Virus record (IMG/VR): IMGVR_UViG_3300048589_000017
Location: 1 to 42,517 of that record
Length of the DNA: 42,517 bases
Source of the DNA: a virus
Strand: one strand, 5' to 3'
Shown: positions 1,855-2,555 of the stretch, one piece after another
Position numbering within the stretch: position 1 is the first letter of the stretch
Layout: each line of letters opens with the position of its first letter
Position numbers and translations under genes: made by a program
The notes under the pieces: model-generated
Seen by the model: only the letters and a program-made list of their open reading frames with translations
Databases searched by the model: none
Told to the model about the DNA's origin: nothing

Positions 1855-1940
1855 TGGGGTGTGTGATGGGTACTGCCCCCACTTTGCGTACTATCGCCTA
1901 GGGTCACAACCTAGTGCCATGCTTTTTGGCGTCACACACC
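1855..1940 (-). tRNA. tRNA-His (GTG anticodon) with unusual elbow and enlarged variable region
   Basis: The acceptor GTGTGTG/CACACAC is capped by an extra G-1 facing C73, the hallmark of bacterial tRNA-His, and CCA is encoded. The anticodon arm is CTAGG-TTGTGAC-CCTAG. The T arm is GTGGG-GGCAGTA-CCCAT, so the T loop lacks TT at 54-55 and has G55. The D loop (AAAAAGCAT) lacks the GG pair that normally contacts the T loop. The variable region is about 15 nt and contains a small GCG/CGC hairpin. The identity elements argue for a working tRNA despite the odd core. Confidence 0.85.
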
Positions 1941-1944
1941 ATAA

Positions 1945-2051
1945 TGCGAGTATGTTATTGAGTTCGAATAAGCCTGTGACCACCACGTTGTAGGAATCGA
2001 ACCCACCTAGCCTCATTAGCAGTGAGATAACCGAACATCATCCGACTCGCA
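1945..2051 (-). ncRNA. Candidate Y RNA 3 (closed by a 7-bp terminal stem)
   Basis: The ends pair perfectly (TGCGAGT with ACTCGCA, 107 nt apart). The 5' strand reads GAGTCGGATG followed by TTCGGTTATC, aligning with the two neighbouring RNAs at 2065-2189 and 2204-2274; the 3' strand ends AATAACATAC before the stem, also shared. Inside are a hairpin with loop CTGCTAA, like a tRNA-Ser(GCT) anticodon arm, and a T-arm-like hairpin GTGGG-TTCGATT-CCTAC. No acceptor stem pairs with the sequence after the T arm, so it is not a normal tRNA-Ser. I infer a Ro60-bound Y RNA; a decayed tRNA-Ser is the alternative. Confidence 0.55.
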
Positions 2052-2064
2052 AGTATTTAGTTAG

Positions 2065-2189
2065 ATGCGGATTAGTTGGTGCTCTCGTTAGCCTACATAA
2101 TAGTGTAGGTTGGGCGACCATTGCCCGTCCATGCCAGTTTGCATAGTTTAGAATCGAACTAAAGATAAACGATTGCATTCGACCCGCAT
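2065..2189 (-). ncRNA. Candidate YrlA-type Y RNA with a permuted tRNA-like domain
   Basis: The outer stem is ATGCGGG/TCCGCAT. Inside, in order, are a T arm TTTAG-TTCGATT-CTAAA (2147-2163), an acceptor-like hairpin CTATGC-AAACTG-GCATGG (2129-2146), AC, a D arm GGGC-AATGGTC-GCCC containing GG (2112-2126), and a further hairpin (2092-2109). That is a tRNA whose acceptor stem is closed by a loop and whose ends lie where the anticodon stem would be, which is the plan I recall for bacterial YrlA RNAs encoded beside Ro60. The 5' strand GGGTCGAATG...TCGTTTATC is shared with the two flanking candidates. Fold and family are inferred by eye. Confidence 0.72.
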
Positions 2190-2203
2190 TTTATTTAGTT
2201 ATC

Positions 2204-2274
2204 GTGGGTATGTTGTGAACCTCGTGTTTATTTGTTTTCACCATTTGAAAGATAAACGAGGCTCTCCGACCCAC
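2204..2274 (-). ncRNA. Candidate Y RNA 1 (simple, without tRNA-like domain)
   Basis: The ends pair as GTGGGT/ACCCAC. The 5' strand GGGTCGGAGAG...TCGTTTATCTTT aligns with the RNA at 2065-2189, including a 12-nt identity, and the 3' strand CACAACATACCC aligns with the RNA at 1945-2051. The interior is one long imperfect hairpin: CCTCG/CGAGG, TTTAT/ATAAA, then TTTCA/TGAAA. It has no T or D arm, so it resembles a classic single-hairpin Y RNA. It starts a few nt after tRNA-Thr and is probably processed from the same transcript. Confidence 0.55.
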
Positions 2275-2277
2275 TAG

Positions 2278-2348
2278 AGCCGCATGTAAGAATCGAACTC
2301 ACAAATTTTCTTTACAAGAGAAAGGTTATACCATTTAACTAATGCGGC
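2278..2348 (-). tRNA. tRNA-Thr (TGT anticodon)
   Basis: This is a canonical cloverleaf: acceptor GCCGCAT/ATGCGGC, D arm GTTA-AATGGTA-TAAC with the conserved GG, anticodon arm TTTCT-CTTGTAA-AGAAA, and T arm GTGAG-TTCGATT-CTTAC. The discriminator is T73 and CCA is not encoded. Its normal elbow contrasts with the neighbouring Ala and His tRNAs. Confidence 0.95.
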
Positions 2349-2366
2349 ATGTATTTAATTATTACG

Positions 2367-2434
2367 TGGAATCGGAGGGTACTGCCCCCTCTAGGATTGA
2401 TTGCAAATCATTCCGCTGCACTTGCAGCGACCCC
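2367..2434 (-). tRNA. tRNA-Ala (TGC anticodon) with shrunken D arm and atypical T loop
   Basis: The acceptor GGGGTCG/CGATTCC carries G3-T70, the decisive identity pair of tRNA-Ala, followed by A73. The anticodon loop is TTTGCAA on a stem with one A-A mismatch. The T arm is GAGGG-GGCAGTA-CCCTC, the same unusual T loop as tRNA-His. Only 15 nt separate the acceptor and anticodon stems, and they fold as a tight CTGC-AAGT-GCAG hairpin, so the D arm is abnormal. CCA is not encoded. Confidence 0.72.
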
Positions 2435-2451
2435 AATGTACTACACGTTAG

Positions 2452-2480
2452 AGTGTAGCACACCAGTGTTGAGTTGTCAA
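2452..2480 (-). promoter_or_regulatory. Strong sigma70-type promoter for the tRNA/Y-RNA/Ro60 transcript
   Basis: The -35 box TTGACA (2475-2480) is consensus. A 17-bp spacer leads to TACACT (2452-2457), preceded by TGC as in an extended -10. Transcription should start near 2445, just before tRNA-Ala. A perfect 6-bp inverted repeat (CTACAC, 6 nt, GTGTAG; 2441-2458) covers the -10 box and start point and could be an operator. The promoter lies directly after the CCA of tRNA-Cys. Confidence 0.8.
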
Positions 2481-2481
2481 G

Positions 2482-2555
2482 TGGAGAGCGATGCGAGATT
2501 TGCACTCGCGTAAGAAGGGTTGCAGCCAACTGCCTAACTACTCGGCCAATCGCTC
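2482..2555 (-). tRNA. tRNA-Cys (GCA anticodon) with encoded CCA and atypical elbow
   Basis: The acceptor GAGCGAT/ATCGCTC is followed by T73 and CCA; U73 is the main tRNA-Cys identity base. The D arm is GCC-GAGTAGTTA-GGC without a GG pair. The T arm is GCGAG-TGCAAAT-CTCGC, with G at position 55. The anticodon loop is CTGCAAC, but its stem GTTGG/CCTTC has two T-T mismatches. Three extra bases at the 5' side (GGA) can pair with TCC at the 3' end, giving an apparent 10-bp acceptor. It lies upstream of the Ala-to-Pro promoter and so is probably on the transcript from 3263. Confidence 0.8.

Follow-up and report, generated by a model that had tools for sequence, protein, structure and literature searches.

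A phage tRNA cluster encodes tRNAs whose elbow probably carries A18-G55 in place of G18-U55

The G18-Ψ55 contact of the tRNA elbow is conventionally presented as invariant and as the site of a near-universal modification. The non-proteinogenic tRNA-Gly of Staphylococcus has a T loop with U54-G55-C56 and a D loop with pyrimidines, not AG, and laboratory selections of suppressor tRNAs have reportedly explored altered D and T loops. In the ordinary elbow, as a passage of PMC7912444 describes it, U54-A58 stacks on G53-C61, U55 contacts G18, C56 pairs with G19 and R57 is sandwiched; the same passage gives the A54-A58 of eukaryotic initiator tRNA, likewise a natural change at 54-58, and names no change at 18-55. 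The staphylococcal tRNA-Gly, as part of PMC9976931 describes it for S. aureus, is a dedicated accessory tRNA with a likewise altered T arm, but it serves glycine only, with a role in peptidoglycan, whereas none of the anticodons of the tRNAs described here (GUG, UGC and GCA) is for glycine. The long tRNA operon of Anabaena PCC 7120, as an excerpt of PMC10272220 describes it, is likewise an accessory tRNA set beside housekeeping tRNAs. The tRNAs by which phages T5 and SP15 are rescued from PARIS or retron-Eco7 are also accessory tRNAs unlike those of the host; the differences described in the excerpts available concern the anticodon arm and a single base of the D loop, unlike the elbow exchange reported here. 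No description of an A18-G55 elbow was recognised in searches of the open-licence PMC literature; subscription print could hold one.

The window analysed here is a whole linear virus record, IMGVR_UViG_3300048589_000017 (42.5 kb). Its major capsid protein showed 45% identity to Streptomyces phages and its Ro-like protein at most 59% identity to the Ro-like proteins of Streptomyces phages, and these searches placed the virus among Streptomyces-phage-like viruses. Neither a primase search nor a DNA search returned a close relative. Five tRNA genes lie on the minus strand from 2555 to 1779, in the order Cys, Ala, Thr, His and Pro, and the same cluster holds three Y-RNA-like elements adjoining a split Ro60 gene.

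The original prediction held that the Ala, His and Cys tRNAs carry G55-C56-A57, lack the D-loop GG and have non-standard elbows, with intact identity elements and normal Pro and Thr neighbours. Read directly on the minus strand, the T loop was GGCAGUA in tRNA-Ala(UGC) (2367..2434; T loop 2380..2386, G55 at 2385) and in tRNA-His(GUG) (1858..1940; T loop 1871..1877, G55 at 1876), and UGCAAAU in tRNA-Cys(GCA) (2485..2555; T loop 2498..2504, G55 at 2503). No GG was present in any of the three D loops; AG stood in for it in all three, which the prediction had overlooked. A 7-nt D loop is numbered 14, 15, 16, 18, 19, 20, 21, which fixes positions 18 and 19, and the D arm of tRNA-His (GCCA-AAAAGCA-TGGC) and the D loop of tRNA-Cys (AGTAGTT) both read A18 G19. 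These two tRNAs directly show the A18-G55 elbow, that is, A18 G19 with G55 C56. The D region of tRNA-Ala is a compact hairpin, CTGC-AAGT-GCAG, whose loop of just 4 nt makes the assignment of 18-19 uncertain; by the AG in this loop, tRNA-Ala is likely to be of the same type. With AG in the D loop and C56 in the T loop, G19-C56 was kept in all three tRNAs (with the same uncertainty for Ala), and the 54-58 pair was U-A in Cys and G-G in Ala and His. The elbow is therefore non-standard insofar as GG and U55 are lost, but it is not broken: because 18 changed together with 55 and G19-C56 was kept, it has most likely been rebuilt to the same shape by compensatory change.

The predicted identity elements were all present: G3-U70 and A73 in tRNA-Ala, G-1 and C73 in tRNA-His, and U73 with anticodon GCA in tRNA-Cys. 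An encoded CCA followed both tRNA-Cys and tRNA-His. The variable region of tRNA-His is 15 nt long with a 3-bp hairpin, which is unusual for His. The D and T loops of tRNA-Cys were identical to those of tRNA-Cys in two other viral loci, L069 and L205. The neighbours were ordinary, as predicted: tRNA-Thr(UGU) (2277..2348, minus strand) has D loop AATGGTA and T loop UUCGAUU, and tRNA-Pro(UGG) (1779..1853, minus strand) has T loop TTCGAGT. The alternative tRNAs share with the canonical tRNA family RF00005 the cloverleaf, an anticodon loop with U33, the identity elements, G53-C61, G19-C56 and R57. In place of canonical G18-U55 they have A18-G55 (His and Cys, likely Ala), and the canonical U54-A58 is found only in Cys.

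Standard tools reported only part of the cluster. ARAGORN in bacterial mode and Rfam RF00005 found only Cys (48 bits, passing the gathering threshold), Thr (63.7 bits) and Pro (55.5 bits), whereas Ala and His fell below the gathering score, with no listed RF00005 match even at E up to 10, and ARAGORN found Ala in mitochondrial mode only. Our own stem-based scanner, which requires G53-C61 and U33 and gives false positives in GC-rich DNA, scored His at 50.7 and Ala at 46.1, as against 52.0 for Pro and 49.7 for Thr. These scores are close to those of the two ordinary tRNAs, and in three whole-window shuffles no match reached 33, so Ala and His are not chance matches; two extra matches of 33-36 in the real window are probably spurious. 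The minimum-energy folds of His (z = -2.39) and Ala (z = -3.49) were cloverleaves that kept the 7-nt GGCAGUA loop, and no fold presenting a normal UUC loop was found instead. A four-arm cloverleaf (7-bp acceptor, 7-nt anticodon loop, 5-bp T stem) was obtained for His and Ala by scanner and folding, and by Rfam and ARAGORN for Cys, where 3 of the 5 anticodon-stem pairs form. The scanner missed tRNA-Cys because of the two U-U mismatches in this weak anticodon stem.

The Ro60/TROVE-like gene (PHROG 850), also on the minus strand, extends over two reading frames (223-714 and 699-1745), owing to a frameshift or an assembly error. A Y-RNA-like element at 1975-2060 (minus strand) reads GAGUCGGAUGAUGUUCGGUUAUCUC..GGGUUCGAUUCC. 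The motif in this element, GGGYCGRA..UCGGUUAUCU, lies upstream of Ro in many of the viral Ro loci (among them L132-L136, L139-L141, L144, L145, L173 and L179-L182), and in phage Sham the element bearing it is annotated as a 62-nt tRNA-Ser. We take the Y-RNA-like elements upstream of phage Ro genes to be Y RNAs of the YrlA kind. Two further elements, at 2185-2275 and 2075-2192 (both minus strand), carry GGGUCGGA or GGGUCGAA, then UUUAUCUUU; their fold z values were -3.8 and -2.1, and they are probably two more Y RNAs.

As a survey of G55 among related phages had been suggested, it is relevant that the feature was found in the tRNA-Phe of Sham and in viral loci L136, L144 and L145. The Sham tRNA-Phe (D region ..GAGATAGATTAGC (..GAGAUAGAUUAGC), T loop UGCGUUA) was 80% identical to that of Streptomyces phage BRock (D region ..GAGATGGATTAGC (..GAGAUGGAUUAGC), T loop UUCGAUA), and in the elbow Sham has A18, G55 and U58 where BRock has G18, U55 and A58. 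It was also 83% identical over 60 bases to the tRNA-Phe of Listeria phages, and the tRNA-Phe of TunaTartare and Faust shared 97% identity with it over 72 bases. Both BRock and Listeria phage P100plus have an ordinary elbow at the tRNA matched by Sham tRNA-Phe, which speaks against a general phage trait. A scan of 18.9 kb of SparkleGoddess, which among known relatives with a mapped cluster is the nearest, turned up no tRNA with G55; the phage family thus does not conserve the trait. The stretches scanned of Vibrio phage Thalassa and Rhodococcus phage Trina also gave no G55 call. In E. coli phage SuperGirl, a tRNA-Ile (L339, 10135-10208) combines U55-U56 with a D loop that contains GA, so that its 19-56 pair looks swapped to A-U. 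A tRNA of Sinorhizobium phage phiM12 (L342, 2995-3071) is flagged as a pseudogene in its record, and nothing unusual is seen by eye in its D and T loops.

Joint change at 18 and 55 was assessed in three surveys. Survey 1 comprised 56 viral Ro loci, fetched by alignment of the window and Sham Ro proteins, together with the window and four named-phage loci (61 in all, 1.09 Mb). The scanner gave 404 matches of at least 41, of which 374 were U55-C56 and 14 were G55-C56, some of these 14 being apparent false positives in GC-rich loci. Under a stricter rule, tRNAs with AG in the D loop and G55-C56 in the T loop (AG-GC) were present in 4 of the 56 Ro loci, as against any tRNA in 25. A further 120 loci were taken from viral_contigs with a T-arm pattern, for which about 100 chance matches were expected by estimate, and they entered the covariation test only after the bait tRNAs had been dropped. 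In survey 1 and these loci together, the D loop had GG in 457 of 471 U55-C56 tRNAs. Among 46 G55-C56 tRNAs, a number that leaves out two with very short D regions, it had AG in 36, GG in 7 and neither in 3, and several of the seven seem to be spurious matches in GC-rich loci or to have had their stems misplaced.

In survey 2, two A18 D-arm patterns with the T loop unconstrained retrieved at least 120 and 36 stretches from viral_contigs. Among the matches listed there were 105 distinct places, 77 of which qualified as tRNAs: 66 were G55-C56, 5 UC, 4 UU, 1 CC and 1 UA, and the four UU cases can all be read in the register G18-A19 with U55-U56. The 28 places dropped from those listed included several clear G55-C56 T loops with one weak stem; others were no tRNA. 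The first pattern, applied to genome_contigs (84,980 species), gave 95 places and 55 tRNAs, of which 53 were G55-C56 and 2 UC. A18 with U55-C56 did occur among the D-arm baits, at 5/77 among the viral matches listed and 2/55 among the genomic ones, which counts against a joint exchange.

Survey 3 pooled the loci (2299 scanner matches, 1902 unique, 1773 without baits); the T-arm, D-arm and genome pattern sets in it are enriched for the feature by design and show the joint distribution, not the frequency. In the test set of 344 tRNAs with a 7-nt D loop anchored by A14 and A21, the 18-55 pair was G-U in 251, A-G in 79, G-C in 11, U-U in 2 and C-G in 1. A18 stood with G55 in 79 of 79, and neither A18-U55 nor G18-G55 occurred among the 344. 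The mutual information between 18 and 55 was 0.783 bits, as compared with a maximum of 0.036 in 500 shuffles, which ignore relatedness, and at most 0.18 for every other D-by-T column pair. The 19-56 pair was G-C in 337, A-U in 3, C-G in 2 and G-U in 2; a swap of 19-56 to A-U with G18-U55 kept also occurs. Position 54 also covaried with 58 (U-A 295, A-U 22, G-G 16, C-A 6, A-A 4, G-A 1). The alternative tRNAs keep G53-C61 (a scanner requirement), R57 and G19-C56, and both exchanged contacts covary. The viral part of the 7-nt set contained A-G 42, G-U 220, G-C 11 and U-U 1, and the genomic part A-G 37, G-U 31, U-U 1 and C-G 1. Among 389 tRNAs with 8-nt D loops, 308 were GG-UC, 65 AG-GC, 7 GA-UU, 2 GG-GC, 2 GG-CC and 5 others.

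The 7-nt set included 76 AG-GC tRNAs, from 32 loci and with 25 anticodons. Clustering at 65% loop-masked identity left 42 AG-GC and 110 GG-UC clusters, still without A18-U55 or G18-G55. For 9 of the 76, the nearest relative was a GG-UC tRNA of the same anticodon, which suggests that the A18-G55 elbow arose repeatedly. Joint change at 18 and 55 was therefore seen directly in His and Cys of the window and statistically across phages and bacterial arrays, and the original prediction, framed on three tRNAs, proved too narrow, the exchange being found in many anticodons, unrelated phages and bacterial genomes. Detection depended on the elbow: in the pooled tRNAs, ARAGORN recovered 1179 of 1198 GG-UC tRNAs, 216 of 352 AG-GC tRNAs (136 missed) and only 6 of 88 G55-C56 tRNAs with G54-G58. 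This standard tool undercounts phage tRNAs.

Whole tRNA arrays of the A18-G55 type were present beside ordinary tRNAs in metagenome-assembled genomes (MAGs) of Verrucomicrobia and Planctomycetota. G55-C56 accounted for 39/44 scanner matches in L432, 18/18 in L381, 20/23 in L367 and 16/21 in L345, and the arrays cover many amino acids. Among the best 30 tRNA loci of the L367 genome, all 26 classifiable ones were U55-C56 (4 unclassified), three of them inside or next to the array on its contig; among the best 30 of the L432 genome, 21 of 23 classifiable ones were U55-C56 (7 unclassified), and the two G55 tRNAs were array members. Since the best loci of both genomes were mostly U55-C56, the alternative set stands beside an ordinary one. 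MAG contigs may be misbinned, and some arrays could be viral. A TROVE (Ro60) match was found in 7 of 14 array or array-like genomes as against 1 of 14 control genomes, and in 6 of the 7 there were G55 tRNAs within a few kb of a TROVE gene; a match was also found in 3 of 13 further G55-bearing genomes or records. Array genome G001 also has, close by, a Band-7 gene, an HNH nuclease and a kinase weakly similar to polynucleotide kinase. A role tied only to Ro60 was rejected, as the G55-rich viral records L039, L053, L069 and L095, which are possibly fragments, had no TROVE match.

Single or few G55 tRNAs were found elsewhere, namely His in Levybacteria and Pro and Ile in Obscuribacterales and Melainabacteria. 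A tRNA-His with A18 and G55 recurs in Levybacteria (L350, L351, L352, L402, L422 and L434) and also in L412 and L426. Genomes of the Nostoc group (L343, L363, L371, L374, L390, L420 and others) have a tRNA-like gene with acceptor TACATAC and the A18-G55 elbow, the anticodon of which varies (AGT, GCA, CTA, ATT, TCT).

We are fairly confident that the three genes of the window are real, foldable tRNAs with an alternative elbow in which A18-G55 replaces G18-U(Ψ)55 and G19-C56 is kept. By their sequences, A18-G55 tRNAs would retain the L shape, and as the identity elements are intact, the His, Ala and Cys tRNAs are expected to be charged and to decode. G19-C56 would be kept as the outer face of the elbow, which RNase P and the ribosome touch. 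The exchange limits modification. G55 is not a substrate of TruB, as had been predicted and as follows from its chemistry, so that no pseudouridine can form there; A18 excludes Gm18, and in Ala and His position 54 excludes m5U and position 58 excludes m1A. We tentatively suggest, short of judging it probable, that the elbow is retained because such tRNAs have no need of Ψ55 (nor, in Ala and His, of m5U54) and are invisible to maturation or nuclease enzymes that recognise G18 or U55. The phage, or an accessory tRNA set, might then keep working when host tRNA modification or integrity is compromised.

Other explanations were weighed against this one. Decay into pseudogenes would agree with the failure of ARAGORN and Rfam to report Ala and His and with the two mismatches in the Cys anticodon stem, but apart from that stem the pairing is intact, as are the identity elements, and chance falls far short of explaining the joint change at 18 and 55, which makes decay extremely unlikely. 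It is also very unlikely that these are non-translational tRNAs escaping EF-Tu. The staphylococcal peptidoglycan tRNA-Gly is altered to avoid EF-Tu, as a passage of PMC9976931 states; however, A18-G55 occurs on 25 anticodons in the 7-nt set alone, and the arrays span many amino acids.

Neutral drift, in which weak selection lets phage and accessory tRNAs cross the fitness valley at 18 and 55 to an equivalent A-G pair with no gain from the loss of Ψ55, is about as likely as the benefit suggested above, though we would not call it probable. It agrees with the coexistence of several equivalents (G18-C55 in 11/344, A19-U56 and three types of 54-58 pair) and with the ordinary elbow of SparkleGoddess, the nearest mapped relative. 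Drift of single genes, however, would not give arrays that are nearly all A18-G55 beside dispersed ordinary tRNAs, whereas descent of a whole array from a common ancestor could. We regard as rather unlikely the possibility, raised in the original prediction, that the exchange protects the tRNAs from an elbow-reading defence nuclease directed at tRNA. Ro60 and polynucleotide-kinase-like neighbours resemble RNA-repair neighbourhoods, and the Verrucomicrobia arrays lie near a Ro60 gene, in G001 also near the kinase weakly matching polynucleotide kinase. According to the part of PMC12409363 available, AriB recognises a single base of the D loop, U16, and also touches tRNA-Lys elsewhere. On the other hand, no nuclease requiring G18 or U55 was identified in this analysis, and the available parts of the phage-tRNA papers searched for elbow terms name none, save U16 for AriB.

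A wider reading, which we regard as rather doubtful, is that A18-G55 tRNAs form a second, orthogonal class, a complete accessory set carried by phages and by bacterial arrays with Ro60 and RNA-repair genes, which would fold and decode without G18 or Ψ55 and go unseen by host enzymes and effectors that read the ordinary elbow. The natural double exchange offers a direct in vivo test of the G18-Ψ55 pair and of the function of its modification, in cultivable phages: Sham and, by their near-identical tRNA-Phe, probably TunaTartare and Faust. Selection for the class, if it exists, would be a pointer to elbow-reading enzymes or defences of the host.
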